Positions 6,019 to 23,384 of a DNA stretch of 64,000 bases are shown in pieces; the stretch's first letter is position 1; the number at the start of each line of letters is the position of its first letter. The position numbers and the translations under genes were made by a program. The notes beneath the pieces are model-generated. The model saw only the letters and a list, made by a program, of their open reading frames with translations, was not told the DNA's origin and did no database searches. This stretch comes from Rhodothermales bacterium (GTDB lineage Bacteria; Bacteroidota; Rhodothermia; Rhodothermales; VXPQ01). Location: contig OX638293.1 in assembly GCA_951812335.1 (NCBI GenBank), positions 1 through 64,000 of the forward strand, given 5' to 3'.

Positions 6019-6054
6019 AACTCCTCCATATCTTGCGGTATCCCGTCTGGCCAT

Positions 6055-6760
6055 ACCATATGGATACTCTGATTATCTCTTTATCTCTTTGCATGACAAT
6101 ACCGGCGTCACGATACAATTTTTACTCGACAATGATCCCGGTGTCAAAGCGGAACAGGCGACACTCCCTAATCCCCTGATAACTTGGCTGGAGCATCAAA
6201 GCACCAGTCGGAACAACGCTTTCGATGAATGGCGCCCCGGTTGGACGTCGGGCGACGCACCTCGGCTCGTTCAGGAGTCCGTCTTTGACGGTGCGGAGAA
6301 GTGGCGGGATGGATTCGATGCAGCGCGGACGCGGGGCGGCCCGCCGATAGACGCCCGAGTCACGATCCGGGGCCGATTGGGGGCAGGCCTGTTCATCTAC
6401 CGGCAGGCAATCCCGGGAGACCAGGATCACCGTGTGGATCGGGACCGCCAGACCTGGTGCGCCTTTCCGGCGGCGGACCGCCACGCAGTTCTGCTCACCC
6501 CATCCGGCGGGCTTGTGGAGCACGACCGCCGCCGTGTCGGCGAAGTCCAATTCGACTTTCGGAGGAGGGAAAACTATCTTGTTCATCAGCGTATTGATGG
6601 GTCGATGGCTTGCTCGCCCGCTATTTTCGGGCAAAGCCCCACAGTGTGCGCCTCTGAGATATACCCGCTCTCTGCTTACCCGGAGATGAGGGTGTGCAAT
6701 GCTTATCACTCGACGCTGATCGAATAGACGCCAAGTCTGATATTTTTGAGGATAGTGGAC
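6055..6760. other. Intergenic stretch between divergent sulfatases with an unidentified ORF
   Basis: About 700 bases separate the two divergently oriented sulfatase genes. A minus-strand ORF at 6122-6709 (195 codons) is open but shows no domain I recognise, and a plus-strand ORF overlaps it. The stretch is visibly GC-richer than the sulfatase genes on either side, so it may be a remnant of older chromosome or of a decayed gene. It should also hold promoters for both sulfatases, which I could not place. Confidence 0.3.
6062..6075 (+). repeat. Solo end of the GGATACTCTGATTA repeat family
   Basis: GGATACTCTGATTA is identical to the terminal repeat of the ~250 bp elements found elsewhere in the window, but no partner end or element body is present within several hundred bases. 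It lies just upstream of the first sulfatase gene, like a scar at the edge of an inserted block. Confidence 0.6.
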
Positions 6761-8161
6761 ATGATCTTCCCCGGCCGGTATTCAAAATCCTCTGGTCTAC
6801 TTGCTTTCGCCTGCATTGCTCTTTTGGCCTGCGCTGACTTGGCATCGAGCCAGCAACTTACACAGCAATCTCCAAACGTGGTCTTCATTCTTGCGGACGA
6901 CCTTGGTTGGACGCAAACAAGCGCCTACGGTAGCAGATATTATAAAACCCCAAACCTGGAAAAACTTGCTAGCCAGGGCGTTCGCTATACCAACGCCTAC
7001 GCCGCTGCCGCTATATGCTCGCCGACCCGAGCGTCGATAATGACGGGAAAATACCCGGCGCGGCTCCACATCACGGATTACATTCCAGGTAGAGCATTTC
7101 GCAATATGCCATTGAAACAGCCGGATTGGCAGCGGAATTTGCCATTGAGCGAATACACGCTGGGGGAGCTTTTCCGCGAACAGGGATATCGAACCGCGCT
7201 ATTCGGAAAATGGCACTTGTCGAAAGAAAAAGCGCCACCAGGTAGTATTGCGCACAATCCATCTGCGCAAGGGTTTGATGAGAGCTTTATCACCTACAAA
7301 CCGCTATCGGGTCCTGCCCGCGAATGGCAAACGCCAGAAGATGACGGGCATAATGTTCGCATGCTGACCGACCTTTCTTTGAAATTTATAGAGCGAAATG
7401 CGAACCGACCCTTTTTTCTTATGATATCTCACAACACTATACACGATCCGCTCATTGAAAAGAGCAAGTTAATTGAAAGTTTTGCATCGAATCCGGAAAG
7501 TAATTATTCTGAAAATTCGCCTGTCATCGCCGCCATGTTAGATACCTTCGATCGAAGCGTAGGCGCCGTTCTAGACAAACTTGACGAGCTTGGACTTGCG
7601 GAAAACACGCTGGTCATATTTTTCTCGGACAATGGCGGTCTAGAGAGTGACGCGAGCCAATTACCTCTTCGCGAAGGCAAGGCATGGCTTTATGAAGGCG
7701 GAATCCGCGTACCGCTAATTATAAGATGGCCTGGCCGTTTTCCTGAAAACACTGTTGATTACAGCCTGGTCAGTTCGACCGATTTTTTTCCGACTTTTAT
7801 GGAAGTACTGGGCCAATCTTCTGACGTTGACGATATGGACGGATACAGTTTGTTACCAGGTTCATCCGAGCGCACAGAGGGAAGCGAAAGGGCGTTGTAC
7901 TGGCACTATCCACACTACCATAACGCCGGAATGTCCCCAGCCGGTGCAATTCGGATAGGTAATATGAAGTTGATCGAATGGTTCGGAAGTGCTCCGGAAG
8001 CATCGGGCACGGCTATTGAATTGTACGACCTGAGCAAGGATATTGGCGAAACCGATAACTTGGTACATCGACAGCCCGAAGTTGCTCAAAAACTGCTGAA
8101 CATGCTTGCCGTATGGCGCACGGAAGTCGGTGCGCAGATGCCGGAAGAACGCTCGGATTAG
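6761..8161 (+). CDS. Sulfatase (arylsulfatase A-like, secreted)
   Basis: 466 residues from the ATG at 6761, preceded by GAGGA with eight bases of spacing; an upstream in-frame TTG at 6746 is less likely. The signal peptide ends around ACADLASSQ and could be a lipoprotein signal (LLAC). The core reads NVVFILADDLGWTQTSAYG (two metal-binding Asp), then CSPTRASIMTG, the C-x-P-x-R formylglycine motif, and later FFSDNGG and GKWHLS, all standard for the family. The length is that of a plain single-domain sulfatase. It is transcribed divergently from the other sulfatase and would hydrolyse sulfate esters on the same type of glycan. A formylglycine-generating enzyme is needed for activity and is not in this window. 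The gene is noticeably less GC-rich than the housekeeping genes, suggesting transfer. Confidence 0.9.
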   Translation: MIFPGRYSKSSGLLAFACIALLACADLASSQQLTQQSPNVVFILADDLGWTQTSAYGSRYYKTPNLEKLASQGVRYTNAYAAAAICSPTRASIMTGKYPARLHITDYIPGRAFRNMPLKQPDWQRNLPLSEYTLGELFREQGYRTALFGKWHLSKEKAPPGSIAHNPSAQGFDESFITYKPLSGPAREWQTPEDDGHNVRMLTDLSLKFIERNANRPFFLMISHNTIHDPLIEKSKLIESFASNPESNYSENSPVIAAMLDTFDRSVGAVLDKLDELGLAENTLVIFFSDNGGLESDASQLPLREGKAWLYEGGIRVPLIIRWPGRFPENTVDYSLVSSTDFFPTFMEVLGQSSDVDDMDGYSLLPGSSERTEGSERALYWHYPHYHNAGMSPAGAIRIGNMKLIEWFGSAPEASGTAIELYDLSKDIGETDNLVHRQPEVAQKLLNMLAVWRTEVGAQMPEERSD

Positions 8162-8564: not shown

Positions 8565-8817
8565 GGATACTCTGATTAATTCTACTTCGATCAGCGCTTC
8601 ATGTTTGTGCGCACAGGACATCATGACGATGTCGTTGAAATCAGCGAAAAACGCTGTGATTCGGTGCATGGCGTACATGAAGCGCCCTTCGGGAGACTGA
8701 GAGAAGCACGCTGGCCGCGTCATTCCTTATTATCTGGGGCCTGCCACATTGCTTCGTCATTCCTTGCCAGCGTACCCCTCTCAGCCTCTGAACTTCGCGG
8801 ACTTAATCAGAGTATCC
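8565..8817 (-). mobile_element. Short inverted-repeat element, copy 1 (253 bp, MITE-like)
   Basis: Starts GGATACTCTGATTAA and ends with its exact complement TTAATCAGAGTATCC. The interior matches the copies at 46728, 53657 and 62434: CTTCGGGAG near one side, ATTGCTTCGTCATTCCTTG, and CCTCTGAACTTCGCGGACTT next to the right end. It has no ORF of its own of convincing size. It is in the opposite orientation to copies 2 and 4. Its right end overlaps the 3' end of the ExbB-like gene (stop at 8781) and encodes that protein's last residues. Confidence 0.85.
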
Positions 8818-9527
8818 TGTACTTCCTCGCCGGCTGTCACGGGGACTTTTTCTCTTGCGAAACCGTAGGCGATGCCTACAGCCCATTTCGAGAGTTCCTT
8901 GTAGCGTTTGCGGACCCAGGATTGCAGGAAGATGTTGAGCGGCCACAGGATCAGACGCACCCACATCGCCAGCATCGTCGAGACAACGGCGATACCCAAC
9001 CCCACCAGATCCGACGCTGCATGGCGGTTACCGCTCGTAAAGAGCACAAAGATGCCCCAAAGCGTTCCGAGAAGACCCAGACTGAGTGCAATATAGACCA
9101 CCCCCGTGATGTACTTGTCGATCTCCTTGTAGTTATCGTGATCGAACCGGATGTAACGCAGCGCATAGTCCAGCATGCTTTTCGGCGTTCCGCCCCTTCC
9201 TTGCTCCTCGAGCAGTTTCTCGCCTGCAAGACGGTAAGGATTGTTTGGACGCACCGAAAAGAGCGCTGTCTTAAAGTCCTGCATGCTCATATTGGAAGGA
9301 TCGAGATTCAATAAAGCCCGGCTGCCTCTCCACTGGCGGAAATAGCGGGCGTAGGCCGAACAAAGGAAAAAAAGACCTATGAAAAAGGCAGCGCCGAGCG
9401 GGAATTCGAAACCTTGGGCGTAGCCGAGCAATTCCCAAATCGAGGTGGCAAGCAAACTGCCCCCTACCTCCTGAGTCGATAGGGTGAGCGTGGTGTCGGC
9501 AGCTTGGGGCAAAACGGATCGTATCAT
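8781..9527 (-). CDS. MotA/TolQ/ExbB-family proton channel protein
   Basis: 248 residues. Three membrane segments are visible: about 42-62, 139-162 and 172-195, with a cytoplasmic loop of about 75 residues after the first, as in TolQ/ExbB. The second helix carries the family signature SLGLLGTLWGIFVLF and the third GLGIAVVSTMLAMWV. Such proteins form a pentameric inner-membrane channel around an ExbD/TolR dimer and convert proton flow into movement of a periplasm-spanning partner. Two ExbD-like genes and a TonB-like gene lie upstream in the same run of minus-strand genes, so I infer a dedicated complex. The last about 11 residues (DTLIKSAKFRG) and the stop codon are encoded by the end of the inverted-repeat element, so the original C-terminus was probably replaced. 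It is the last gene of the run, 58 bases after the usher gene. Confidence 0.8.
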   Translation of the reverse strand: MIRSVLPQAADTTLTLSTQEVGGSLLATSIWELLGYAQGFEFPLGAAFFIGLFFLCSAYARYFRQWRGSRALLNLDPSNMSMQDFKTALFSVRPNNPYRLAGEKLLEEQGRGGTPKSMLDYALRYIRFDHDNYKEIDKYITGVVYIALSLGLLGTLWGIFVLFTSGNRHAASDLVGLGIAVVSTMLAMWVRLILWPLNIFLQSWVRKRYKELSKWAVGIAYGFAREKVPVTAGEEVQDTLIKSAKFRG

Positions 9528-9585
9528 TGTGTCAAACTACTACAAGGCGAGATTGAAAAACACTGTAACCGCCGGACGGTGGGCG

Positions 9586-12090
9586 TCAAGGCGTCACGAG
9601 TACTTTTTGGACAGGTCCATCGCGCACCTCCAGGTCCCGGGTAAAGGCCTGAAGGTCTTCCTGGCCGAGAAGGTCGTAAAGTTCGATCCGGTAAGCGCCG
9701 GGAGCCAAGAGAGCCGTGAAAGAAGCCTGCTGGGAAACTTCGGACCGCAGAACCTCTTCGCCTCCCGAGAAGAAAACGACGCTGGCTTGCGTGGGAGAGC
9801 TCAGCGGCAAATCTTCGATGACTCCCTGCACGATGGTGTTCCTTTGCACGGGGATGTCGACACGCTTGGTCGATCCGGGATCTGACATAAAACTGAACGT
9901 CGCGCCCGTAGACAATTGCAGGGCAGGATCGGGAACGGACGACGGATCGATAACGACCTGATACGCTGTACTGGGCTCCAGAAAGTCTGCGCGCACGACA
10001 CTTGCATCCACTTGCCGAACGCGCGCCTTGACGACCTTGATGTCGAGCCCTTCCACCAAAGATTCTTCCGGGTCTCTGCGACCGTCCCTGTCCGTGTCGT
10101 AGTACGCTTGCAGCAAAGCGCTGCTACGCATGTTCGCCTGCCGGCTGAATCGCATGGGGCGCCCCAGTTCCATCGAGCCGTGGAGGCTCTGTATGTGGTA
10201 TGGGGTTCCCGATTCTATAGACGAATGGTTGTTGACACTTATCCAGGGAGCGTCCAGACGCAAGGTGACCGAGGCTTTCATGTTGTCGAATGCAAAATCG
10301 TAGCCGGCGCGCAGGCCAAGAGACACCTTTCTGTAGTATGCGTAGAACGTTGCTCCCGCAAAATCCGTGCGTTCCCACAGTCCTCCGTCGGCTTGCAAAC
10401 CGAAACGTCCGCGTAGCCCCTTGACGGAGGCCGCTCGCGTCAGCGTCGTCTTCCAGTGCATGCGAAAAGATTCCGGAGAAAGAGTGCTGTGCCGGCGAGC
10501 AAGGCCGACCGTAACGAGAGCACTCGTTCTGCGCGGCAACGTCAGGGTCGTCGAGCCGCTTACGCTCGTATGGCCGCCGCCGCTAAAGGTTCCGGACTGA
10601 CTGGCGTTGAGAAAAAGGCTCATGCCTCCGGCGCTGAAGCCGAAGTAGGCCTGAAGGCGCCTCTTGTAGAACGAAAGCAGCGGCTCGTCAGAAAACTCGG
10701 CTTCCATCTGCAGGCGCAGCTTCTCGAAGGACATGTGCATGGAAGCCCGCGCCGCTTTCATCGGCAGCGCCATTTCGGCGCCTGCGGTCAAAAAGCCCCA
10801 CTGATTACGGGTCAATCCGACCATAGCGGTCATGAGCGTATCGAGGCGTATAAAGGCGGCTTTCGCCGAGAGGCTCTGGCTGACGCCGTAGCGGGCTTGT
10901 CCGAACGCAAAGAGGGTTTCGTCGAAGCTGTCGCGTCCCGCTTGGGCATCGTACCAAAAAGTTCCTGGGGGCAGGAGATCTTCCCCGATGAAGAGGTGGC
11001 GCGTTACGGTGGTGGGGGGACCGCCCGGGGGAGCAATTTCAAGAAGGACCTGCGAGGAGCCGTAATAGGCTGGAATGCGCAGCGTGTAGCGTCCCTGCGC
11101 GTCCGCCCGCACGCGGTCGGCAAGCACCCCGCCCACCGAAGCGGCAACTATGGCGTCCGGTTCGGCGATCCCTCGTATGGCCGCTTCCCGCTGGACGTAC
11201 CTGGTCGAAAGGGGCATGTTGCTCAGGCGAACGCCGTCGAAGGTCGTACGAAGTGGCCACTCGTACGTGCTCATTCGTCCTGCCTCCATACGCTTGAGCA
11301 GCCGAGAATTCGGAAAATCGAGAAGGTAGTTCAGCGAACGAAACCGCGTGGTCGTCCGCCCCTGTATCATTGAAAGAGTGCCTTTGGCGGCAAGGCGCCC
11401 GCCCAGCGCGTTCGAATGCGCCTGGAAACCCCCGTTATAACCGAGTGAACCTGCCGACCGGTCGCTGCGCGTCAGACGGTAGTTGATATGCGTGTTGCCC
11501 AAAAGGCGGCGGGAGCGGCCGTAGAGCAACGGGCCGTGCGGGTGATTGCCGGACCCGGGCGGTCTGGCGGAAAACGAACTTTCCAGAGGCGCGGCGGCCG
11601 TTGAAAGCCGGATGTGCAGCGTCGAAGCGTCGAATTGCATGGCGGCGGACGTGAACATCGTCTGCACGCCTTCCAGCGCGAGGTAGTAGCGCCCTTCACT
11701 CGCAAAAAAATCTTCGGGGGCAATCTCCACAGGTTCCGACTCACCTTGCAAAATCCGGCCTGTCGCAAAATCGATCATAAAAATACGCTCGGAATCTCTG
11801 GCTTCGACGACCAGATCCAGCACGGCGACATCGAAACCGAGCCGGTCGAAAAAGTCCGCGATATCCAGATAGTATCTGCCCGCCTCGGAGTCCCACCAGA
11901 CCAGGACAGGTGTCGAAGAAGACAGAGCGCCCGGTGTGCTTACCGTCCAGGGCGTCTCCTGTAAAAAGCGAAGAGGCCTGCCCTGATCCGGCGTCTGCTG
12001 CGCCAGGACCGATGCCGAGGAACCAAAAACGACGGCAAGCGCCGGCAGGCAGAGCACACGGAGAATCCATCTGTGTTTTACACGCAGCAT
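9586..12090 (-). CDS. Fimbrial usher-like outer-membrane protein
   Basis: 834 residues with a signal peptide (cleavage near SVLAQQ). The N-terminal 165 residues resemble the periplasmic domain of archaic-type ushers (GRYYLDIADFFDRLGF, EGRYYLALEGVQTMF). The barrel then carries usher hallmarks: RTTFDGVRLSNMP, IRGIAEPDAIVAASVGGVL (the plug-like region), LLPPGTFWYDAQAG, and many alternating beta strands rich in Arg and aromatics. Near the C-terminus YYDTDRDGRRDPEESLVEG is an SdrD-B-like calcium-type loop, seen in some archaic ushers, followed by a terminal beta domain. Ushers are the outer-membrane pores through which chaperone-bound subunits pass. The gene lies six bases after the giant adhesin gene, which itself carries chaperone- and pilin-like domains, so the two probably work together. 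Length matches the 750-870 residues of known ushers. Confidence 0.75.
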   Translation of the reverse strand: MLRVKHRWILRVLCLPALAVVFGSSASVLAQQTPDQGRPLRFLQETPWTVSTPGALSSSTPVLVWWDSEAGRYYLDIADFFDRLGFDVAVLDLVVEARDSERIFMIDFATGRILQGESEPVEIAPEDFFASEGRYYLALEGVQTMFTSAAMQFDASTLHIRLSTAAAPLESSFSARPPGSGNHPHGPLLYGRSRRLLGNTHINYRLTRSDRSAGSLGYNGGFQAHSNALGGRLAAKGTLSMIQGRTTTRFRSLNYLLDFPNSRLLKRMEAGRMSTYEWPLRTTFDGVRLSNMPLSTRYVQREAAIRGIAEPDAIVAASVGGVLADRVRADAQGRYTLRIPAYYGSSQVLLEIAPPGGPPTTVTRHLFIGEDLLPPGTFWYDAQAGRDSFDETLFAFGQARYGVSQSLSAKAAFIRLDTLMTAMVGLTRNQWGFLTAGAEMALPMKAARASMHMSFEKLRLQMEAEFSDEPLLSFYKRRLQAYFGFSAGGMSLFLNASQSGTFSGGGHTSVSGSTTLTLPRRTSALVTVGLARRHSTLSPESFRMHWKTTLTRAASVKGLRGRFGLQADGGLWERTDFAGATFYAYYRKVSLGLRAGYDFAFDNMKASVTLRLDAPWISVNNHSSIESGTPYHIQSLHGSMELGRPMRFSRQANMRSSALLQAYYDTDRDGRRDPEESLVEGLDIKVVKARVRQVDASVVRADFLEPSTAYQVVIDPSSVPDPALQLSTGATFSFMSDPGSTKRVDIPVQRNTIVQGVIEDLPLSSPTQASVVFFSGGEEVLRSEVSQQASFTALLAPGAYRIELYDLLGQEDLQAFTRDLEVRDGPVQKVLVTP

Positions 12091-12096
12091 GGGATA

Positions 12097-15000
12097 TCAT
12101 TGTTTGCTTTCAAGCGCTTGCACGGTCGTTGTACGGTCGTTCTCCTGCATATCTCTATCCTGCGCAGCGCCTATGTCCCTTCCCGGCGCATCCCATTCAA
12201 CGGACGCCGGCGCAGGCGCCCGGCCAGCGCCGCGAGGCGAAAAACGCAAAAACACCGTCCCTGCCTCCGGCATGCGAGCCAGCGGAATACATACGCGGCT
12301 ACGCGTGTACACCAGCGTCTCGCGGCGACCCAATTCGCGACCTTCCCCGTCGTACGCCACCACCTCGCCCGCAAATGGACGATCCGCCGTCTCCAGAAGA
12401 AACATCGCCGACAGCGCACCCGAACAAGACGTCGACAACAGCGTGGCGCGCAAGCGCGACGCCCCCGCACCGGGTATGTACACGCCCGGCACGCGCATCG
12501 TCACGCGGGCCGTCCTGCCGACCATCACCTCCTCCGGCATCCGATCCGAACGCACATACTGACGAGGAGTGGACACCACGTCGAAAAACGCCGCATAGCC
12601 CTGCTCAGCCATCGACGCAAGCGCCTCCGCTCCCACCCCGTACCGTACCAAACCCTTCTCGCCGGGCTGCAATACCAGTACCCCCGGATAAATATCCACC
12701 AGTGACGACAAATCGCCCAGAAGAGATTCCGACGCTTCCTCCACTACTGTCTCGCGACCGTCCTCCGTCGCCTCCGTATACCCGAAACGGGCCGAAACCG
12801 AAATCTCCAGTGGAACGAGCGACGGGTTCGATAGCTCCAGCGCGCCGTGCGGCTTCCGCTCCGTCAAGAACGCAACGTCCGGATATACGCTCAGGTTCTG
12901 CTCCGCCGTCAAGCCCGCAGGCAGCTCCCGCAACGTCCCGAAACGCACCCCTCCCGGGCCTATCGTGATCACCCGCTGTGCGGGAACAACCGTCGCTTCC
13001 ACCTCCACCGAATGCGTCTCTTCGCTCTCGCCCGAACGAAGAACGACGTCCAGGTTTCCCGCATAATGCCCCGGAAGCGCCTCCGCGAGGTCCAAATCGC
13101 CCCCGAAATGAAGAAGGCGGCAATCGCCCCCCGAAAGCGTCACTTCCGTATACAGGCTCCCCGCCGCCTGTGAGGATAACTGCTCGCACGACTCTGAAAA
13201 AGACCAGCGAGGCGAAAGGACGATCGAAGCCGCCTCCGCACCGCCCTTGCGCCGGAGAAGCGCCGGAGACGCCACCTCTATGGACAAAACCATAACCCCG
13301 TTCTCGTCAACCGCTGCGACGCCGTCGAGCGAAAGCGTCATGCGTCCCGCATGGTAAGGACCCGATACCCGTGTCGATATGCCATCGGTCAGCGGATCAA
13401 GAGACACCTCGGTATCCGCCGACTGCACCCCGAAACGCAACGACGACGCGCTTACCGTTACGCCAAGAGACGACGGCCTCTCAATCCCCGAAGAAGAAAA
13501 TTCCGCTACGGGTGGAGAAGGTTCCGGGGCAGGCCTCACCTCGATGGAAAATGCAAGCGATACGCTCGCGTCGCTCGCGTCGCTCGCCTGCCAGGCGTAC
13601 TCCGTGCGAGGGCTTACCCTGAGCGGCGTACCCGTTACCGCTCGTCGCGAATCGTCCAGCCGAAGTCCCTCCGGCAATGCGGGCGCCAGCGCATAGGCAT
13701 ACGGGGGAAAACCGCCCGCAGCCCGAGGAAGAAGAATGTCCTCGATACGCTCGCCCACAGTAAATACGTATACGCGGCCCGCAAGCGCGTCGTCCGCGAG
13801 AGCGAGCGGCGCGCGATTCAGCACCGTCACCGTAACCTCCGACGTTACGGGATCCGCATCCTCTGCCGAGACCGTCAAAAGGTACTCGTACGTCGTCGTC
13901 GAGGCCACCTCGTCCGGCACGTAAAACGTCGGGGAAGCGACGTCCGTCGCACTCAATAGAGATAGGTCCGAAGCGCCACCCAGGGCCGTCCATGCGTAGG
14001 CGTAGGCGGAACCCGGAGGAGCGCCTGAAGCTTCGCAATCCAAATCAAAGTCCGGCGATCCCTCATACACCACCGGGGGGGCTGCGCATGCTACGCTCAG
14101 CGCTTCACGATTCAGCACCGTCACCGTAACCTCCGACGTTACGGGATCCGCATCCTCTGCCGAGACCGTCAAAAGGTACTCGTACGTCGTCGTCGAGGCC
14201 ACCTCGTCCGGCACGTAAAACGTCGGGGAAGCGACGTCCGTCGCACTCAATAGAGATAGGTCCGAAGCGCCACCCAGGGCCGTCCATGCGTAGGCGTAGG
14301 CGGAACCCGGAGGAGCGCCTGAAGCTTCGCAATCCAAATCAAAGTCCGGCGATCCCTCATACACCACCGGGGGGGCTGCGCATGCTACGCTCAGCGCTTC
14401 ACGATTCAGCACCGTCACCGTAACCTCCGACGTTACGGGATCCGCATCCTCTGACGAGACCGTCAAAAGGTACTCGTACGTCGTCGTCGAGACCACCTCG
14501 TCCGGCACGTAAAACGTCGGGGAAGCGACATCCGTCGCACTCAATAGAGATAGGTCCGAAGCGCCACCCAGGGCCGTCCATGCGTAGGCGTAGGCGGAAC
14601 CCGGAGCAGCGCCTGAAGCTTCGCAATCCAAATCAAAGTCCGGCGATCCCTCATACACCACCGGGGGGGCTGCGCATGCTACGCTCAGCGCTTCACGATT
14701 CAGCACCGTCACCGTAACCTCCGACGTTACGGGATCCGCATCCTCTGCCGAGACCGTCAAAAGGTACTCGTACGTCGTCGTCGAGGCCACCTCGTCCGGC
14801 ACGTAAAACGTCGGGGAAGCGACATCCGTCGCACTCAATAGAGATAGGTCCGAAGCGCCACCCAGGGCCGTCCATGCGTAGGCGTAGGCGGAACCCGGAG
14901 GAGCGCCTGAAGCTTCGCAATCCAAATCAAAGTCCGGCGATCCCTCATACACCACCGGGGGGGCTGCGCATGCTACGCTCAGCGCTTCACGATTCAGCAC

Positions 15001-18000
15001 CGTCACCGTAACCTCCGACGTTACGGGATCCGCATCCTCTGCCGAGACCGTCAAAAGGTACTCGTACGTCGTCGTCGAGGCCACCTCGTCCGGCACGTAA
15101 AACGTCGGGGAAGCGACGTCCGTCGCACTCAATAGAGATAGGTCCGAAGCGCCACCCAGGGCCGTCCATGCGTAGGCGTAGGCGGAACCCGGAGCAGCGC
15201 CTGAAGCTTCGCAATCCAAATCAAAGTCCGGCGATCCCTCATACACCACCGGGGGGGCTGCACATGCTACGCTCAGCGCTTCACGATTCAGCACCGTCAC
15301 CGTAACCTCCGACGTTACGGGATCCGCATCCTCTGACGAGACCGTCAAAAGGTACTCGTACGTCGTCGTCGAGACCACCTCGTCCGGCACGTAAAACGTC
15401 GGGGAAGCGACGTCCGTCGCACTCAATAGAGATAGGTCCGAAGCGCCACCCAGGGCCGTCCATGCGTAGGCGTAGGCGGAACCCGGAGGAGCGCCTGAAG
15501 CTTCGCAATCCAAATCAAAGTCCGGCGATCCCTCATACACCACCGGGGGGGCTGCGCATGCTACGCTCAGCGCTTCACGATTCAGCACCGTCACCGCAAC
15601 CTCCGACGTTACGGGATCCGCATCCTCTGACGAGACCGTCAAAAGGTACTCGTACGTCGTCGTCGAGACCACCTCGTCCGGCACGTAAAACGTCGGGGAA
15701 GCGACATCCGTCGCACTCAATAGAGATAGGTCCGAAGCGCCACCCAGGGCCGTCCATGCGTAGGCGTAGGCGGAACCCGGAGGAGCGCCTGAAGCTTCGC
15801 AATCCAAATCAAAGTCCGGCGATCCCTCATACACCACCGGGGGGGCTGCGCATGCTACGCTCAGCGCTTCACGATTCAGCACCGTCACCGTAACCTCCGA
15901 CGTTACGGGATCCGCATCCTCTGCCGAGACCGTCAAAAGGTACTCGTACGTCGTCGTCGAGGCCACCTCGTCCGGCACGTAAAACGTCGGGGAAGCGACG
16001 TCCGTCGCACTCAATAGAGATAGGTCCGAAGCGCCACCCCGGGCCGTCCATGCGTAGGCGTAGGCGGAACCCGGAGGAGCGCCTGAAGCTTCGCAATCCA
16101 AATCAAAGTCCGGCGATCCCTCATACACCACCGGAGGGGCTGCGCATGCTACGCTCAGCGCTTCACGATTCAGCACCGTCACCGTAACCTCCGACGTTAC
16201 GGGATCCGCATCCTCTGCCGAGACCGTCAAAAGGTACTCGTACGTCGTCGTCGAGACCACCTCGTCCGGCACGTAAAACGTCGGGGAAGCGACATCCGTC
16301 GCACTCAATAGAGATAGGTCCGAAGCGCCACCCAGGGCCGTCCATGCGTAGGCGTAGGCGGAACCCGGAGGAGCGCCTGAAGCTTCGCAATCCAAATCAA
16401 AGTCCGGCGATCCCTCATACACCACCGGGGGGGCTGCGCATGCTACGCTCAGCGCTTCACGATTCAGCACCGTCACCGTAACCTCCGCCGTTCCGGGATG
16501 CACATTATATAGCCAGACCGTCAAAAGGTACTCGTACGTCGTCGTCGAGACCACCTCGTCCGGCACGTAAAACGTCGGGGAAGCGACGTCCGTCGCACTC
16601 AGCAGGTCCGTGTCCGGCGTACCGCCCCGGGCCGTCCATGCGTAGGAGTAGGAAAAACCCGGATTAGCCCCCGAAACCGCACAGGAAAGCGTAATGTCGG
16701 CCGCCCCTTCATAGACCGCGGAGTCTGTGCACGTCACAACAGGCAAGGGATTCACTTCTATATTAACAATAAAAATCATATCCTCCGCATTGTCCGCTGT
16801 GACAGTTAGCGCATAAGTAAGTCGAATGGGAACATCGGCCATAGGTGGGTTAAATATCGGGGAAGAGATGTCCGTCGCACTCAATAGAGACAGGTCCGAA
16901 GCGCCGCCCGGGTCCGTCCATGCGTAATTGTAGGTAGAACCCGCCGGCGCGCCCCCGGCAGAACATTGAATTTGGAGGGGCACTCCTTCATAGGCAACCA
17001 GGCCGATGGATACCCATCCGAAACCAAACCCGCAGTCAACGTCGATCTGAGGCTTGTTCAGCACTCTCACGGTTATGTCGTCGGAAACGTCGTTGATGCC
17101 CGCGGCGGACAATGTCACCGTGTACGCGTAGTCCGTGTCCGCATTCACGTTGTCCGGCACATAGAATGTCGGGGAAACGATATCCGTCGCGCTAAGCCGG
17201 TTATCGCTATCCGTACCGGTCCAACTGTACGCAGCGTCCGCAGGCGCGTCATTCGCCGAACAGTCCAGCACGATGTCCAGCGCGTCTTCGTACACAGGGG
17301 CGGGATCCGTGCAAGCGATGGAAGGAGGAGGCGTATGCCCCGAAACTTCTTCCGCATCCAGCACCCTGACCGTCACCTTACGCCGCGCCGTGCGGGAAAC
17401 GCCCGAAGAAGAAGACGTCATGCTCGCTATGTAATGGTACGCCTCGCCCCCGCTGCCCGCAGGAGCCCAAAACAACACCGACGATCTGTCCGTCGCATCC
17501 AGCAGCGAAACGCTCGTTCCCCAAAGACCCTCCCACGACCATTGGATCGACGCGCCGTCCTCGTCGTAGTCCATACGGCCCGACAGAGGGTCCACCCCAG
17601 TGCAATCCAGAGCTATCGCTGCGCCCTCCTCAACCGCTACCTCCAATGGACAATAAACGCTCGGACGACTGCTGGATACGTATACCTCCACCTCGCGCCA
17701 CGACGAAAGACCCGTCGCACGAGACATAGCCGTCAAACGATACAGGTAACGAAACGTCGTCTCCCCCGAAAGAAACGACTTCAGCGTCTCGTAACGAGGA
17801 AGTTCCGGAGCCACCACCGACGGACTCGGGGAATCCTCCGGTATCAAACGAGGATTGTCCAGATAGTCTCGCGTCGTACCACCTACCGGCTCCCAGTAAT
17901 ATTCCAGATACGACTCCCCCGATGCGTCCGACCCATAACAGGCGATCACGCCCGTCTCCAACTCCTCCAGAAACACCGCCGCAGGACAATCCAGCAACGG

Positions 18001-18759
18001 CGCGCGAGCAAGTCCCGTCGACCCGCCGGAAGAAAAACCGCCGCCGACCCCGGAAGGCCCATCTGGAGAACCGGGAAAGGACGGCCACGGAACGATCCCT
18101 TCCTCCCCGAGTTCGTCCCCGAAAAAATCCGACGCCGGAGCCTTCTCCGAGGCAAGACAACTGCCCCTCGCCTTGCTGAAAACCCCGAACGAATCACACG
18201 CCGGCGCCGGTAGCGACCCGGATGCTTCCTCAACCCCCTCGCCGGAACCGACCCCTTCCACCGAGACCCTCACAACGGCCGTCTCGTAAACGCCCGCAGC
18301 CGTCGCCGTCAATCGGTACGCATAGTCCGCGATCGATCCCGAAGAGGGCGCCGTAAACACCGCAGATAATCCGTGCGATTCCGCGGAAACGCTCAACAAA
18401 GCAAGCCCGGCGCTCGAAACCGATGCCCACGAGTAGCGAACTCCTTCCTCCGGTACCGATGTCGCTGTGCAAGAGAACGGAACGCTCTCGCCTGCAGCAA
18501 CATAAAGGCGAGACGGGCAAGACAGGGAAAACGGCTTCCCCGGAACGACCTCGCCCTTCACGGGAAACCTGCCTTCCTCCGCTACCTGACCCGTTGCCGA
18601 AGATGCGCACAGCAGCAACGCAAGGAAAAACATGCCGGCCATGCGCCGAAAACGCCGACGTTGCACGGCTTGATCCGGATCGCGACGAAAACCGAACAGG
18701 GAAATGCAGAACAACGTACCGCCACCAACACAACATACGCGTGATTTGCACATGTTCAT
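12097..18759 (-). CDS. Giant Ig-repeat surface protein with pilin-like and chaperone-like C-terminal domains
   Basis: 2220 residues from the ATG at 18759 (AGGTG just upstream); the ORF could extend to 18837, and an internal Met close to the hydrophobic stretch MFFLALLLCASSATGQ is a further candidate. Residues about 60-767 are diverged Ig/PKD-like domains. Residues about 768-1649 are nine almost identical 98-residue repeats, each with two Cys (VACAAPP and LDCEAS) that could form an Ig-type disulfide. About 1650-1755 is a putative-Ig (He_PIG-like) domain (PEGLRLDDSRRAVTGTP). About 1758-1920 ends CRLLHFGGDLDLAEALPGHY, like DUF4402/Csu-type pilins. About 1950-2190 resembles a PapD chaperone: LSVYPDVAFL, ALELSNPSLVPLEISV, DIYPGVLVLQPGEKGLVRYG. 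An adhesin carrying its own subunit and chaperone domains would be unusual. Domain calls after residue 1750 are by eye. Confidence 0.7.
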   Translation of the reverse strand: MNMCKSRVCCVGGGTLFCISLFGFRRDPDQAVQRRRFRRMAGMFFLALLLCASSATGQVAEEGRFPVKGEVVPGKPFSLSCPSRLYVAAGESVPFSCTATSVPEEGVRYSWASVSSAGLALLSVSAESHGLSAVFTAPSSGSIADYAYRLTATAAGVYETAVVRVSVEGVGSGEGVEEASGSLPAPACDSFGVFSKARGSCLASEKAPASDFFGDELGEEGIVPWPSFPGSPDGPSGVGGGFSSGGSTGLARAPLLDCPAAVFLEELETGVIACYGSDASGESYLEYYWEPVGGTTRDYLDNPRLIPEDSPSPSVVAPELPRYETLKSFLSGETTFRYLYRLTAMSRATGLSSWREVEVYVSSSRPSVYCPLEVAVEEGAAIALDCTGVDPLSGRMDYDEDGASIQWSWEGLWGTSVSLLDATDRSSVLFWAPAGSGGEAYHYIASMTSSSSGVSRTARRKVTVRVLDAEEVSGHTPPPSIACTDPAPVYEDALDIVLDCSANDAPADAAYSWTGTDSDNRLSATDIVSPTFYVPDNVNADTDYAYTVTLSAAGINDVSDDITVRVLNKPQIDVDCGFGFGWVSIGLVAYEGVPLQIQCSAGGAPAGSTYNYAWTDPGGASDLSLLSATDISSPIFNPPMADVPIRLTYALTVTADNAEDMIFIVNIEVNPLPVVTCTDSAVYEGAADITLSCAVSGANPGFSYSYAWTARGGTPDTDLLSATDVASPTFYVPDEVVSTTTYEYLLTVWLYNVHPGTAEVTVTVLNREALSVACAAPPVVYEGSPDFDLDCEASGAPPGSAYAYAWTALGGASDLSLLSATDVASPTFYVPDEVVSTTTYEYLLTVSAEDADPVTSEVTVTVLNREALSVACAAPPVVYEGSPDFDLDCEASGAPPGSAYAYAWTARGGASDLSLLSATDVASPTFYVPDEVASTTTYEYLLTVSAEDADPVTSEVTVTVLNREALSVACAAPPVVYEGSPDFDLDCEASGAPPGSAYAYAWTALGGASDLSLLSATDVASPTFYVPDEVVSTTTYEYLLTVSSEDADPVTSEVAVTVLNREALSVACAAPPVVYEGSPDFDLDCEASGAPPGSAYAYAWTALGGASDLSLLSATDVASPTFYVPDEVVSTTTYEYLLTVSSEDADPVTSEVTVTVLNREALSVACAAPPVVYEGSPDFDLDCEASGAAPGSAYAYAWTALGGASDLSLLSATDVASPTFYVPDEVASTTTYEYLLTVSAEDADPVTSEVTVTVLNREALSVACAAPPVVYEGSPDFDLDCEASGAPPGSAYAYAWTALGGASDLSLLSATDVASPTFYVPDEVASTTTYEYLLTVSAEDADPVTSEVTVTVLNREALSVACAAPPVVYEGSPDFDLDCEASGAAPGSAYAYAWTALGGASDLSLLSATDVASPTFYVPDEVVSTTTYEYLLTVSSEDADPVTSEVTVTVLNREALSVACAAPPVVYEGSPDFDLDCEASGAPPGSAYAYAWTALGGASDLSLLSATDVASPTFYVPDEVASTTTYEYLLTVSAEDADPVTSEVTVTVLNREALSVACAAPPVVYEGSPDFDLDCEASGAPPGSAYAYAWTALGGASDLSLLSATDVASPTFYVPDEVASTTTYEYLLTVSAEDADPVTSEVTVTVLNRAPLALADDALAGRVYVFTVGERIEDILLPRAAGGFPPYAYALAPALPEGLRLDDSRRAVTGTPLRVSPRTEYAWQASDASDASVSLAFSIEVRPAPEPSPPVAEFSSSGIERPSSLGVTVSASSLRFGVQSADTEVSLDPLTDGISTRVSGPYHAGRMTLSLDGVAAVDENGVMVLSIEVASPALLRRKGGAEAASIVLSPRWSFSESCEQLSSQAAGSLYTEVTLSGGDCRLLHFGGDLDLAEALPGHYAGNLDVVLRSGESEETHSVEVEATVVPAQRVITIGPGGVRFGTLRELPAGLTAEQNLSVYPDVAFLTERKPHGALELSNPSLVPLEISVSARFGYTEATEDGRETVVEEASESLLGDLSSLVDIYPGVLVLQPGEKGLVRYGVGAEALASMAEQGYAAFFDVVSTPRQYVRSDRMPEEVMVGRTARVTMRVPGVYIPGAGASRLRATLLSTSCSGALSAMFLLETADRPFAGEVVAYDGEGRELGRRETLVYTRSRVCIPLARMPEAGTVFLRFSPRGAGRAPAPASVEWDAPGRDIGAAQDRDMQENDRTTTVQALESKQ
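13813..16458 (-). repeat. Nine tandem 294 bp repeats inside the giant surface protein gene
   Basis: The unit of 294 bp (98 codons) recurs nine times with only scattered differences, such as GAGACC/GAGGCC, GGAGGAGCG/GGAGCAGCG and CATCCG/CGTCCG. The encoded unit runs from REALSVACAAPP to SEVTVTVLN. The few variants are shared in mosaic fashion between units (APPG versus AAPG, VVST versus VAST, SAED versus SSED), as expected from unequal crossing-over or gene conversion. Copy number is likely to vary between strains and the array may be mis-assembled from short reads. Confidence 0.95.
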
Positions 18760-18879
18760 CACCTGTATGGCATCGCCTGCACTACATGAATTGGGCGTGT
18801 CCGAAAAAAACGAAACTGTTGGGAAGCGAAAAAACAATTGGTACGATACAAATACCTGAATAATTACGTTCCGATTGCG

Positions 18880-20418
18880 CTACTGCTCGGATCCGGCGGC
18901 GCGCAACGTCTTGTAACGGTCCAGAAGGATCGTTACTTTTCCGGTTTCCCCCATCCGACGATACAGGTTGCCCATGAGCGTAAGGTAGGCAAGTTGATCT
19001 TCCCATTGCATCGCACCGAAAACCTTCTCAATGCGGGGCTCCAGTAATCGGGCCTGCTGCGGGTTGTAGCGGGCAAGCCGCAACGCTTCGACAAAAGCCC
19101 TGCCGGTATACTGGCTCCCGACTTCGGTTACCTGTAACAGATAGGTAAAGGCCAGGGCAGAAGCCCCCTCCCGCCGGTGTTCCAGAGCGCGTTCGAAGAG
19201 CATCGTGGCATACGTCTGTCGAAGATCGTCCACGAACTCGGGATAGGGCGTCTTTTGCGTTTCGGCGCTATCGGCAACGAGGTCCCAAAGCACATGCAGC
19301 GTGTCCAGAGCTCCCTCCTGATGATCGTGCTCATAGGCCAGCAACGCATGGTTGTAACTCGCCTCCATACGCGCGGAGGTTTGCGTCAGGCGAGGAATCA
19401 TCCAGGCCAATCCTTGTTGCGCTCCGGAAGGATCGGTGGAGAACAGTGTTTGCAGACTGTCATAGACCAGCCGGTTCTCGAAGTTGTGGTGGTCCCACAG
19501 GACCCATTCCATTTCGTTGCTGGCATAGCCTTCCTGCTCGGACGTGGTCGTATACTCCTGTGCCAGGGACAGGGCATGGCGCACTCCCTCTCCATCCCGG
19601 CTTTCAACAAACGCACGATACGAGCGGACGTAATAGGTAAAAAGCGTAAGGCTATCCGGAGGCGGACGCTCCGTGTCCGGCACAAAAGCGAGGCGGGAAT
19701 CGTCCAGAACAACTTCCGCGGCTTGTAACCAGGTAAGCGCGCTGGCAGGAAATTGATTCAGTTTTTCAAGAACGACAGCTACTTCCGCCCACAGGGCGTG
19801 ATCGTCAGCGCGGAGATTCAGTAATCCCCGTAGCAATGTGAGCACTTCCTCCCAAGCCTCATCTTGTCTCAGCCATTGGGCCCGAACACTGTAAACCTGA
19901 GCCAACTGGTGGCGTGCATCGTCATGCCGCGGATTTAGAGCCAGTGCGTTTTCAAACAACGTCTGAGACTGTGCAAGAAGTGTCTGAACGCGCAGGCTGT
20001 CCCGTTGCGCCTGAGCCTGGGCCGCTTGTATGAGCACTTGTTGGGCCTGCGTATGGGTTTCCGTAAACGCCAACGTGTCCACCGGGGCAACGTCCGTAGA
20101 GTCCTCCGATGCATCCAGTGCCTGAAGAGGCGGATCCCCGTTCAACTGGCTCAGGGCGCTGTCTATGCGCTCGAACAAGACGCGGCCTTCCAGAAAGTTT
20201 TTCTCCGCTTCGGTTTCCGCCAGGACGTGCACAAAGGCGCCATGGAACGAATTCAGCACATCCGCAATAACCAGACTATCCACCCCGGGAAGAGGAGGCG
20301 AAACCGGGTCCATGGGAACAGGATCACTCTCGGTGATAACCTCTTTCGAGGATCCACACCCCCATAGAAATGCGAGGCACAGTACGCCCGCCAACGGAAG
20401 TATTGCGAATCGATGCAT
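18880..20418 (-). CDS. TPR-type lipoprotein
   Basis: 512 residues. The start MHRFAILPLAGVLCLAFLWG leads into a Cys at position 21 followed by GSSKE, a lipoprotein signal. After an acidic Pro-rich linker the protein is almost entirely alpha-helical. Helix pairs such as LFENALALNPRHDDARHQLA and LLNLRADDHALWAEVAVVLE resemble tetratricopeptide repeats. It probably sits in the periplasm on the outer or inner membrane as an assembly or scaffold factor. It lies between the ExbD-like gene and the giant surface-protein gene on the same strand, 120 bases before the latter. A role in assembly of the usher/adhesin, like that of TPR lipoproteins in other secretion systems, is inference from position. Confidence 0.65.
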   Translation of the reverse strand: MHRFAILPLAGVLCLAFLWGCGSSKEVITESDPVPMDPVSPPLPGVDSLVIADVLNSFHGAFVHVLAETEAEKNFLEGRVLFERIDSALSQLNGDPPLQALDASEDSTDVAPVDTLAFTETHTQAQQVLIQAAQAQAQRDSLRVQTLLAQSQTLFENALALNPRHDDARHQLAQVYSVRAQWLRQDEAWEEVLTLLRGLLNLRADDHALWAEVAVVLEKLNQFPASALTWLQAAEVVLDDSRLAFVPDTERPPPDSLTLFTYYVRSYRAFVESRDGEGVRHALSLAQEYTTTSEQEGYASNEMEWVLWDHHNFENRLVYDSLQTLFSTDPSGAQQGLAWMIPRLTQTSARMEASYNHALLAYEHDHQEGALDTLHVLWDLVADSAETQKTPYPEFVDDLRQTYATMLFERALEHRREGASALAFTYLLQVTEVGSQYTGRAFVEALRLARYNPQQARLLEPRIEKVFGAMQWEDQLAYLTLMGNLYRRMGETGKVTILLDRYKTLRAAGSEQ

Positions 20419-20425
20419 AACGAAC

Positions 20426-20465
20426 CTGTCTCAGGAAGATATATCCTGCCTCAGGAAGATATATC
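20426..20465. repeat. Two tandem 20 bp units in an operon gap
   Basis: CTGTCTCAGGAAGATATATC is followed directly by CTGCCTCAGGAAGATATATC, one mismatch apart. They fill most of the 46-base gap between the ExbD-like gene (which ends at 20465) and the TPR lipoprotein gene (which starts at 20418). They could be a slipped-strand duplication or a binding site in the mRNA. Confidence 0.85.
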
Positions 20466-20827
20466 TAAGGTGTAACCAGAACGATAAAAACGGCTTGTCT
20501 TCCGGCTCTTTGCACGAGGCTATTCGCATTTAGCATCAGATATGCGGCGGCATCCTTATCGGCTGTGAACTCGACCGTGCGGTCCGGATGACTCGCGACC
20601 AGCAAAGCATAGAAATCGGCGGGGTTAAGTACCACATTAGAGCCTTCGTTTGCGGGAGTGAGAAACGTTCCATCATTCGATATCGCCACCTGAAGAGGCT
20701 GGAGCTGGGGCTTCCCGGTTTCCGCCTCCCGGCTCGTCGGCGGCTCTATCTCGAACGTGGGAACAGTGCTGATTGCCACGAGTGTGGCCAGCAGAATGAG
20801 TACGATGTCTACCAGAGATTCATCCAT
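20465..20827 (-). CDS. ExbD/TolR-like protein (second copy)
   Basis: 120 residues. A short N-terminus leads directly into one membrane helix (about 4-22) with an early Asp: MDESLVDIVLILLATLVAIS. The Asp at position 7 could be the proton-carrying residue of ExbD/TolR/MotB-type stators. The rest is a periplasmic domain ending in VFIVLVTP, with the layout of small ExbD proteins (QPLQVAISNDGTFL, then DRTVEFTADKDAAAYLMLNA). It ends 46 bases before the TPR lipoprotein gene and starts seven bases after the TonB-like gene. Two different ExbD-like proteins in one operon could form a heterodimer inside the channel of the ExbB-like protein. Family assignment rests on topology and a weak sequence match. 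Confidence 0.65.
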   Translation of the reverse strand: MDESLVDIVLILLATLVAISTVPTFEIEPPTSREAETGKPQLQPLQVAISNDGTFLTPANEGSNVVLNPADFYALLVASHPDRTVEFTADKDAAAYLMLNANSLVQRAGRQAVFIVLVTP

Positions 20828-20834
20828 CTTTCAA

Positions 20835-21959
20835 CTACATGTTTTGACTTTCCTGCTGCCACCAGGCAAGAAAAAATTTGAAAAAATCCCTTGCCTCGGG
20901 ACTTGTGGGGGAAAAATCCTCGCTCTCGACAAAGTCGACGCGTTCCAGTTCATCCCGGTCAACAATTCCCTTCTGGAAATACTGGGCGCGCTTCTGAAAT
21001 CCGGGGTCTACAAAATAGTAGATGTCGCCTTCCTTGATCAGGGCAATCCGAATTTCCCTGTTGGAGGGTGTATACATGATCTGAATCTCAGAGGGCTCGG
21101 CCTCGATCATGGTCTGCGCCCTGGCACTGATGGCAGGAGGAGCAAAATAAAAGAGCGACCTGATTCCGGGATCCAATTCGGCCTGATTATTCATGATCCA
21201 TTGCAAAAGGGAGTCTGACGGAACGGAAATATCCCCTTCTCCAAGAGCCAGATTGTCCATGCGAGCTCCCGAGTTGGACGAAGATTCCAACGACGGTGCT
21301 TCCGCTCCCCCGGTAGCTCGAATGGTTTCCCGGCCAGACCTATCGGAGAAAGAAAGCTCCTCCAAATTGCCTGTATAGCGGCGGGATCCGTTCGATTCGC
21401 GCGAGGACGAAAACGCCTCCCCGATAAAATCGGATGAAAGGGACCGCGACGAACGGGAAGGATTGCCGGCATCGTTCAGCAGGTCCTGTGTCAGATCCAA
21501 TCCCGAATCAAAGGCAGATTGTGGCTCGGCAAAAAGCACTAGATCCTGATCCGTCAGCGAGACAACCTCCCGGTTGTTCTGTTGTGTCTCCGGCCCTTCA
21601 ATAGACACGTCGGAAAAGGAAAAAGTCTCAAACGCCTCGGCCATCAGCACCTCAACGTCTTCCGCCAGAAGTTCGTCGGCCGGCGCTTCGGAATCGAAGG
21701 ATATTTCCAAAGCAGCATCTTCTTCTCCCGGTGCATCGGGAACTGCTTCGTCCGCAGAAGGCTCTATTGCTATTTCTTCGAAAGCCGATAAGTCCAAGCT
21801 CTCCAGCATGAGTATCTCTATCGTGGCCTCGGCGAATTCCCGTCCGGGCATGGGTATAACGGTAAACGCCAGGGTAAAAAGCACAGAAATGCCGACAAAC
21901 AAAAACCACGAGACGCGGCGTGTTTTTCTTTCCTCTCTTTCAGACCAGGACAATGCCAT
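20835..21959 (-). CDS. TonB-topology periplasm-spanning protein
   Basis: 374 residues. A basic cytoplasmic N-terminus (REERKTRRVSW) is followed by one membrane helix (about 16-36), then a long, acidic, Ser-rich linker of low complexity (about 50-255), then a compact C-terminal domain from SDSLLQWIMNNQAELDPGIR to the end, rich in beta strands and aromatics (EGDIYYFVDPGFQKRAQYF). This is the topology of TonB and TolA, although the linker lacks the usual Pro-Lys repeats and I see no clear TonB C-terminal motif. It lies between two ExbD-like genes (7 and 14 bases apart). I infer that it carries force from the ExbB/ExbD-like motor to the outer membrane, with the usher or the adhesin as possible targets. 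It could instead be a structural partner of unknown class. Confidence 0.55.
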   Translation of the reverse strand: MALSWSEREERKTRRVSWFLFVGISVLFTLAFTVIPMPGREFAEATIEILMLESLDLSAFEEIAIEPSADEAVPDAPGEEDAALEISFDSEAPADELLAEDVEVLMAEAFETFSFSDVSIEGPETQQNNREVVSLTDQDLVLFAEPQSAFDSGLDLTQDLLNDAGNPSRSSRSLSSDFIGEAFSSSRESNGSRRYTGNLEELSFSDRSGRETIRATGGAEAPSLESSSNSGARMDNLALGEGDISVPSDSLLQWIMNNQAELDPGIRSLFYFAPPAISARAQTMIEAEPSEIQIMYTPSNREIRIALIKEGDIYYFVDPGFQKRAQYFQKGIVDRDELERVDFVESEDFSPTSPEARDFFKFFLAWWQQESQNM

Positions 21960-21973
21960 GGAACCATAGAAAA

Positions 21974-22357
21974 CTAATTATTGACGGTGCATTGCCAGCC
22001 ACGCCGGGAGCAGAGATCGAGCATGGATACCAACTGCTGGACGGTAGCTTCGCCCTGCGGGGAAAGTACAAAAACCGTTTTTGCGTTCTGCCTGTATGCC
22101 TGCTCCAGGCATCCTGCGAGACTTGCGAGGGTTGCGGGCGCGCAGGCTTCTTCTCTTTGAGGCAGTCGCAGCACCATAAAATGCATGCGATCGTCAAACC
22201 GGACCTCATACAGGGGCACGGGGTCGCTTTCCGCCTGCAATCCGTTCGGAAGCGGCACATCCGCTTCAGGAGTTGTCTCGGTTAACATCAGAAACCCCGC
22301 GAGGAGAATAAACCCGAGATCAATGAAAAGGAGGATATCGGAACGGCCGTTTTCCAT
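21974..22357 (-). CDS. ExbD/TolR-like protein (first copy)
   Basis: 127 residues from the ATG at 22357; the frame is open to 22426, which would overlap the upstream gene and add 23 residues. The N-terminus MENGRSDILLFIDLGFILLA contains an Asp (13) at the start of the single membrane helix, as in ExbD (PLIDVMLVLLIF-type). The periplasmic part ends in VFVLSPQGEATVQQLVSMLD and LCSRRGWQC, which fits the conserved ExbD pattern of a strand followed by a helix and a glycine turn. It would form a dimer in the pore of the ExbB-like protein encoded at the far end of the operon. Separated from neighbours by 14 and 10 bases. No clear ribosome site decides between the two starts. Confidence 0.7.
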   Translation of the reverse strand: MENGRSDILLFIDLGFILLAGFLMLTETTPEADVPLPNGLQAESDPVPLYEVRFDDRMHFMVLRLPQREEACAPATLASLAGCLEQAYRQNAKTVFVLSPQGEATVQQLVSMLDLCSRRGWQCTVNN

Positions 22358-22367
22358 GACAAAGTCA

Positions 22368-23063
22368 TTATCGACAGGAACGGGAGGCGACGCTGCCAAC
22401 CCTTGTCGTACTCTCGATGACGACACATCCCTCGGTATCGATGTAAGAACGAAACTCCGGTTGTTTGTGGACCATGATCACCAGCGGATCCTCTTCCCGA
22501 AGATCCGACTGGATGCATTGCGTAGCTTTAGGCGAAAATGTCCAAATAGCTTCCTCGTAGTTCCAGAACGTGATATGTACATCTTCTCCCTGCTGAAGGA
22601 GGTGGATTTCCATAGGCCCTTCAGGGTAGTAATGCAGAAGAGACCCTAACATAGCCCCGGCGAGGGCTTTTTTCGGGTCTTCCTCCACTTCCGCTTCGTC
22701 AGCCAGCAGGGGACTTCTACTGCGGACGGTGCTGATCCGATAGTCCGTTTCCAGATTCAACGAGACCAGCGTATTGAGTATGGCCTCCGGAAAGTATGGG
22801 CTCAATGAAAAGTGTTCTTCGCTGGGATATAGCACAATAATATCGTTCGAGCCGAATCCGTCTTGCGTGACATCCAGAAAGACCGCATGGGTATAATCGG
22901 GATCGTTCGGAAAGATGATCTGATCTTCCAGAAAACGATCTATGAACTCCAGATCATATACTTCCGCGGCAGGAAGGACACGCTGGTTCACCTTTGCCTC
23001 TTGTCCACGTACGCTCCAGCAAGGCAGCAACAGCAGGCTTGCAAAGGTAAGGGTCCGTCCCAT
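22368..23063 (-). CDS. Secreted protein of unknown function, first gene of the usher/ExbBD operon
   Basis: 231 residues from the ATG at 23063, which has GGAGGAA five bases upstream. The frame is open further upstream but there it reads through a transposase remnant. A signal peptide (MGRTLTFASLLLLPCWSVRG, cut before QEAK) is followed by a soluble alpha/beta domain (HAVFLDVTQDGFGSNDIIVL, LHYYPEGPMEIHLLQQGEDV) with two Cys in the last third. I recognise no family. It lies ten bases before the first ExbD-like gene and is probably a periplasmic component of the same system. No earlier gene of the operon remains: immediately upstream is an IS3 fragment. Confidence 0.65.
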   Translation of the reverse strand: MGRTLTFASLLLLPCWSVRGQEAKVNQRVLPAAEVYDLEFIDRFLEDQIIFPNDPDYTHAVFLDVTQDGFGSNDIIVLYPSEEHFSLSPYFPEAILNTLVSLNLETDYRISTVRSRSPLLADEAEVEEDPKKALAGAMLGSLLHYYPEGPMEIHLLQQGEDVHITFWNYEEAIWTFSPKATQCIQSDLREEDPLVIMVHKQPEFRSYIDTEGCVVIESTTRVGSVASRSCR

Positions 23064-23109
23064 GATTCCTCCAGAAGTTATCCGTAAAAAACAGGACATT
23101 CCTTTAAGT

Positions 23110-23384
23110 GTCCTGCCACTTGCGGGCAGCGGTCTTCGCTGGAAAAATACGTCATCGGGCGTTCGGTTGTCAAGTCCATGACGGGGCGTTCCTCGTTGAA
23201 GTAGCGCAGGTAGTCGGCGATGCGCTTCTCGGACACCCGTCTCGTACGCGTGTCGATAGACTTCTTCCTGCTTGAGGCTGCGCCAGAGACGCTCCGTGTA
23301 CACGTTGCCAGGCCAGTATCCCTTGGCGTCCAGCGAAATGTGTATGCCGTGCAGATTGATTGGATCGGAACAAGGTCGCAACAA
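23110..23384 (-). pseudogene. IS3-family transposase (OrfB) C-terminal fragment with frameshifts
   Basis: The minus strand reads GIHISLDAKGYWPGNVYTER then LWRSLKQEEVYRHAYE, the characteristic C-terminal integrase-core stretch of IS3-family transposases (normally GKGxxxDNxxxERxWRSLKxEEVY). It then changes frame and continues ADYLRYFNEERPVMDLTTER, corresponding to the usual YNxxRPHxxLxxxTP ending. No N-terminal part, OrfA or terminal inverted repeats are visible, so it is a decayed fragment. It sits directly upstream of the first gene of the usher/ExbBD operon and between that operon and a restriction-modification module. Confidence 0.8.

Follow-up and report, generated by a model that had tools for sequence, protein, structure and literature searches.

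A giant Ig-repeat adhesin with its own pilin-like and predicted PapD-like chaperone domains, encoded beside an usher gene in a Rhodothermales bacterium

The window analysed here, meaning the whole stretch of 64,000 nucleotides at positions 1 to 64,000 of contig OX638293.1 (GenBank assembly GCA_951812335.1, a Rhodothermales bacterium), carries an operon that is transcribed from right to left in the order ExbD-like b, P4, ExbD-like a, TPR lipoprotein, giant adhesin, usher and ExbB-like protein. The usher gene starts 6 bp downstream of the giant adhesin ORF. The genes and the features within them are, in window coordinates:

8781..9527, minus strand: ExbB/TolQ/MotA-like proton-channel protein (Pfam MotA_ExbB, 4e-6)
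9586..12090, minus strand: predicted outer-membrane usher, 834 aa (AlphaFold2 [AF2], Foldseek, VIA-align)
12097..18837, minus strand: giant adhesin ORF, 2,246 aa counted from TTG
12190..12471, minus strand: predicted PapD-like chaperone domain 2 (D2), residues 2123-2216 (AF2, VIA-align)
12472..12909, minus strand: predicted PapD-like chaperone domain 1 (D1), residues 1977-2122, with a putative G1 strand near 2108-2122 (AF2, fold matches)
12910..12984, minus strand: conserved flexible linker, residues 1952-1976, motif RVxxxGPxGVxF (pLDDT <50 at model residues 188-210)
12985..13026, minus strand: extra seventh strand of the pilin-like domain, residues 1938-1951 (DSSP E172-185 after E157-169; alignments)
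12985..13467, minus strand: pilin-like domain, residues 1791-1951 (blastp against free pilins, E 5e-13 to 9e-7; AF2 model residues 27-185)
13516..13812, minus strand: He_PIG domain (Pfam He_PIG, 9.7e-6)
13813..17328, minus strand: adhesin stalk of repeated Ig/PKD-like domains, about 98 residues each (Pfam K319L-like_PKD, 1.6e-64, 11 stretches; Ig_2, 1.6e-25)
18880..20418, minus strand: TPR lipoprotein with a Cys after the signal peptide (family search; conserved in both operon types described below)
20465..20827, minus strand: ExbD-like protein a (Pfam ExbD, 1.3e-7)
20835..21959, minus strand: P4, a single-TM periplasmic protein, TonB-like by topology only (sequence; conserved in both operon types)
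21974..22426, minus strand: ExbD-like protein b (Pfam ExbD, 5.4e-5, just below the cut-off)

The likelier start of the giant adhesin is an ATG at 18642, opening a signal peptide (MAGMFFLALLLCASSATGQ), or one at 18759. Several of the Ig repeats within 13813-17328 are near-identical, which indicates recent repeat expansion or length variation, and a Pro/Ser-rich linker follows the He_PIG domain. The Pfam and NCBIfam searches matched K319L-PKD, Ig and He_PIG domains in this protein, and residues 1785-2246 gave no family match of their own. Neither PapD_N nor DUF4402 had a direct match in the window protein or anywhere else in the genome, and the search of the C-terminal region against these two models, proposed in an earlier sequence-only reading of the locus, was thus negative. 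Since the Pfam and NCBIfam models leave the chaperone and pilin parts unnamed, these were assigned from relatives and from structure. Sequence profiles searched against the PDB did not identify the chaperone or the usher, the weak matches being attributable to chance, and P4 had no family match in the Pfam search.

The motifs quoted in the sequence-only reading map to residues 1911, 1982 and 2053 of the 2,246-aa ORF. The 480 C-terminal residues were modelled by AF2 from an input of 25 sequences (model number plus 1766 gives the protein residue), and the resulting model (pLDDT 80.6) comprised a pilin-like domain at 27-185, a low-confidence linker at 188-210 and a two-domain region at 211-450, such that a PapD-like fold of two domains is predicted for residues 1977-2216. 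In both Foldseek and VIA-align comparisons this region grouped with PapD, FimC, CsuC, Caf1M, SafB and CfaA. VIA-align ranks 1-45 were all chaperone-usher chaperones (Z 12.5-10.8), with the alignments spanning model residues 202-452 and hence both domains. The structure prediction that had been called for therefore gave, for residues 1977-2216, two predicted Ig-like domains in the PapD boomerang arrangement; the rmsd values of mostly 5-8 Å indicate that the angle between the domains differs from that of known chaperones. This chaperone domain forms the C-terminal part of the giant ORF and is not a free soluble protein acting in trans. The putative G1 donor strand of the fused chaperones retains alternating hydrophobic residues (ArVtMrV), which may mean that it still caps something, but the corresponding strand in free relatives is longer by two residues.

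Residues 1791-1951 were found to be homologous to stand-alone DUF4402-type pilins, with about 30-36% identity to the free proteins. Pfam DUF4402 matched two pilins of separate-gene operons above the cut-off (2.3e-6 and 1.6e-5) and a direct homologue at 0.008. The family profiles built here included fused sequences, and the independent evidence for pilin homology is that of the pairwise matches. The earlier suggestion of a DUF4402/Csu-type pilin thus holds with respect to homology with DUF4402-matching operon pilins, and has to be qualified by the lack of a direct Pfam match and by the gain of a strand G. The free pilins of the family begin with an N-terminal donor extension (TSGTMQVQLEVLP) and end at strand F (GRYAGHLAVRITPL), with no strand G. 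The fused pilin-like domains, on the other hand, lack the donor extension in all 26 cases aligned, a linker or an Ig domain preceding them instead, and the same 26 carry a further C-terminal strand (ETHSVEVEATVVPA). In the model this strand forms a predicted F-G hairpin (strands 157-169 and 172-185, two residues apart by DSSP; pLDDT about 94). The fused domain looks, from the prediction and the alignments, to be self-complemented and non-polymerising, supplying its own seventh strand in cis, and would lack an open acceptor groove as well as any donor strand with which to polymerise. With a strand G of its own, the domain would not need the chaperone to supply a missing strand, and donation of a strand by the chaperone to the adjacent pilin-like domain, which had been envisaged earlier, is not supported. 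Classical and archaic chaperones also clamp the free C-terminal carboxylate of their subunit (PMC4654587); the fused domain has no such free carboxylate.

The new strand and linker were also tested as a possible leftover N-terminus of a second pilin. The segment VEVSVTVVPAQRVIT resembles the donor extension of free pilins, and a 30-column profile had its best match at the new strand/linker in 6 of 21 proteins, exceeding the 95% level of shuffled sequences in three.

The neighbouring 834-aa protein gave no Pfam usher match, and its identification derives from predicted structure. In DSSP of the AF2 model, an N-terminal domain is followed by 6 strands, a plug domain, about 18 strands and two C-terminal domains, as in FimD; the prediction thus has the 24-stranded barrel (a count taken from DSSP of the model), the plug after strand 6 and the two C-terminal domains of FimD/PapC ushers. 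Foldseek ranks 1-19 were all FimD/PapC (best 1.2e-28), and the 15 best VIA-align rows were PapC and FimD (Z 25 to 17.8), the first porin following at 14.8. The fold matches barely covered the N-terminal domain. A scan of named organisms with the usher sequence alone as query returned no match, and the same scan with an alignment of ushers led to metagenome-assembled genomes of Rhodothermales and Bacteroidetes.

To place the fusion among its relatives, 60 related genomes, several relatives being drafts, were searched with the C-terminal 467 residues. In other members of the genus as well as in a second family, the entire C-terminal stretch again forms the tail of a large Ig-repeat protein, whose open frame measures about 700-2,450 residues wherever the contigs are long enough. 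The second family (f15) also possesses a paralogous operon in which a separate pilin (about 190 aa) and a separate chaperone (about 258 aa) are followed by the usher. The window region matches such separate pilin and chaperone genes beside separate ushers at 26-36% identity (blastp E 1e-6 to 7e-23). Since pilin, chaperone and usher are separate in this related operon of sister genomes, the fusion is considered to be real and derived. The presence of adhesin, pilin-like and PapD-like chaperone domains in one polypeptide, as first proposed from the sequence, is thereby upheld by the separate genes of relatives and by the AF2/VIA-align folds, next to a predicted usher. A free chaperone in relatives, the possible counter-evidence named at that stage, does occur in another family, but there it belongs to a paralogous operon that is distinct from the fused one and brings a pilin and an usher of its own; none was found in the fused operons. 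A class-wide profile search identified free chaperones in many other genomes, and all five of the more distant ones tested matched PapD_N weakly (8e-4 to 0.046) but in register. In a maximum-likelihood tree, one branch with support of 100/99 sets all 25 fused chaperones apart, and they form a single fusion clade. The module is under purifying selection, median dN/dS values among ten same-genus copies being 0.31 for pilin plus linker, 0.24 for D1 and 0.26 for D2.

The same ExbB, two ExbD, P4 and TPR genes accompany both the fused operons and the separate-gene operons of the second family; at L121, the single distant operon that was mapped, no ExbB/ExbD was detected within 10 kb. That ExbB, the two ExbD-like proteins and P4 are kept with the usher in both operon types makes a proton-driven usher system possible.

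In the window genome (2.69 Mb, a single contig), chaperone domain, pilin-like domain and usher each occur once, all within the operon at 8781-22426. The expectation that the operon holds no separate chaperone gene was borne out, and at profile sensitivity no free chaperone was detectable anywhere in the 2.69-Mb genome, nor was a further pilin or usher. In other genomes, these profiles pick up chaperones that are far more distant, mostly with E values of 1e-12 or better. Of two sister genomes, G003 carries five or more complete modules, which lie on different contigs, and G001 carries three, each genome with one detected usher; by profile search, neither these nor any other searched genome of the genus contained a free chaperone. 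With at least five modules and one detected usher in a single genome, the module behaves like a portable tag for export and anchoring. In G004, of the same genus, a short module remnant at locus L012 is all that was found, with no usher detected, which shows the system to be accessory and capable of being lost. In G196, the entire fused operon is present four times in near-identical form (L111, L112, L113 and L114), together with one separate-gene operon (L115). At L120:5925-12935, in another genome of the class, a 2,337-aa ORF gave two weak PapD-domain-1-like matches and is possibly a different Ig/PapD-like giant.

It appears fairly probable that the locus encodes a chaperone-usher system cut down to one exported polypeptide, with a self-complemented base and a tethered chaperone that remains at the usher as a permanent base. 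In this polypeptide, a long Ig-repeat adhesin would lead into a pilin-like base with its own seventh strand, a flexible linker and a PapD-like chaperone that was formerly the product of a separate gene. The tethered chaperone would dock the adhesin onto the neighbouring usher and the stalk would exit through the usher barrel with its N-terminus, the tip, first; no subunits would be polymerised by donor-strand exchange. Being covalently attached and too bulky for the pore, the chaperone would be retained in the periplasm. At the base of the type 1 pilus, FimC is likewise too large for the FimD pore and so anchors the pilus (PMC10673952). By this analogy, a permanent base is the better supported of the two outcomes proposed for a covalent chaperone, the other being cleavage. 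In sister genomes, the same C-terminal module may serve as an export and anchor tag for several adhesins that use one usher, and the occurrence of several adhesins per usher fits such a portable tag. ExbB/ExbD of the operon may energise export, an energy coupling that is hinted at by their conservation with the usher in both operon types. A difficulty for this mechanism is that folded Ig domains amounting to some 2,000 residues would have to thread the usher tip-first, and the hydrophobic alternation kept in G1 also counts against it. It is possible, if doubtful, that the locus represents a distinct secretion route altogether, in which a self-complemented pilin and a chaperone together form a portable C-terminal tag that exports and anchors giant adhesins as monomers, several of them to one usher, and passage through the usher is driven by the proton channel ExbB/ExbD together with a TonB-like protein.

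Other explanations have to be weighed against the permanent base. The chaperone domain might act in cis through G1 during export and then be cut off at the linker (residues 1952-1976), so that the adhesin is set free or anchored anew. The linker is predicted to be disordered, yet RVxxxGPxGVxF is kept in most fused loci, and together with the retained hydrophobic alternation of G1 this would suit such a role; in the copies of G196 and G038, however, the motif fades, a seventh strand is already present in the pilin-like domain, and no protease gene was seen among the conserved operon genes, so that cleavage is regarded as rather unlikely. That the PapD-like part is nothing but two more Ig-like domains at the stalk base, exported with the rest, and its pairing with an usher a relic, is improbable: PapD-like (ASH/MSP) folds with non-chaperone roles do occur among the fold matches and the donor strand is shortened, but the top 45 matches are without exception two-domain usher chaperones, the pairing with an usher holds in the genomes examined and both were lost together in G004, and genomes with several such adhesins yielded no other chaperone. 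Repeat-rich genes are prone to misassembly, and a merger of adjacent genes by assembly or sequencing error might be suspected; this is barely credible and was rejected given the spread of loci, as an intact, in-frame module recurs at more than 20 loci, spread over about a dozen genomes and two families, same-genus copies have a synonymous divergence of 0.65-0.96 with dN/dS near 0.25, and the window genome is one contig.

To our knowledge, every chaperone-usher system has its chaperone in trans and a fibre that is a polymer joined by donor strands. The CupB system of P. aeruginosa, with CupB5 and a P-usher, resembles the window operon in tying a large adhesin to an usher locus, but CupB5 is a TpsA-like protein with separate chaperones and, unlike the window protein, has no chaperone fusion. 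In the open-access literature, no report was found of a chaperone fused to its adhesin, of a chaperone-usher system in Rhodothermales or of an ExbB/ExbD-usher operon. A functional likeness exists with FimI-FimC-FimD of the E. coli type 1 pilus and with PapH-PapD, where the last pilin, capped by a chaperone too large for the pore, remains at the usher as the anchor of the fibre (PMC10673952, PMC12122975). There, however, the fibre is a polymer and the chaperone, a protein in its own right, is retained by donor-strand complementation, whereas here the link is covalent and the fibre one chain. With respect to the archaic Csu and CupE systems, one of the best structural matches is CsuC (Z 11.6) and the neighbouring free pilins are DUF4402/SCPU-like; CsuC anchors the free C-terminal carboxylate of its subunit (PMC4654587), which the window protein does not offer, and the window genome has no detectable polymer-forming pilin. 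Homologous pilin, chaperone and usher are found in the separate-gene DUF4402 operons of the sister family (L055-L059) and of other families of the class (L096-L104, L121), those at L055-L059 sharing the ExbB/ExbD/P4/TPR genes of the window operon as well. In these operons the three proteins are encoded separately, and the pilins possess a donor extension but no strand G, where the window has pilin-like and chaperone domains in one fused chain.

A covalent chaperone and a self-complemented base suggest that an usher can serve a single-chain adhesin, a case that makes testable both the demands an usher places on its substrate and the way in which a fibre is retained at the cell surface. Export through ushers is usually held to need no external energy, and the recurrent linkage with ExbB/ExbD raises the question of whether coupling to the proton gradient is possible.

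Downstream of the operon lie two sulfatase-like genes (3949-6054 and 6746-8161, recognized by eye). Just upstream of it, an ORF at 22368-23384 opens with a transposase-like stretch (IS3-type, by eye) that is read into a secreted-protein ORF, which suggests an insertion near the start of the operon.
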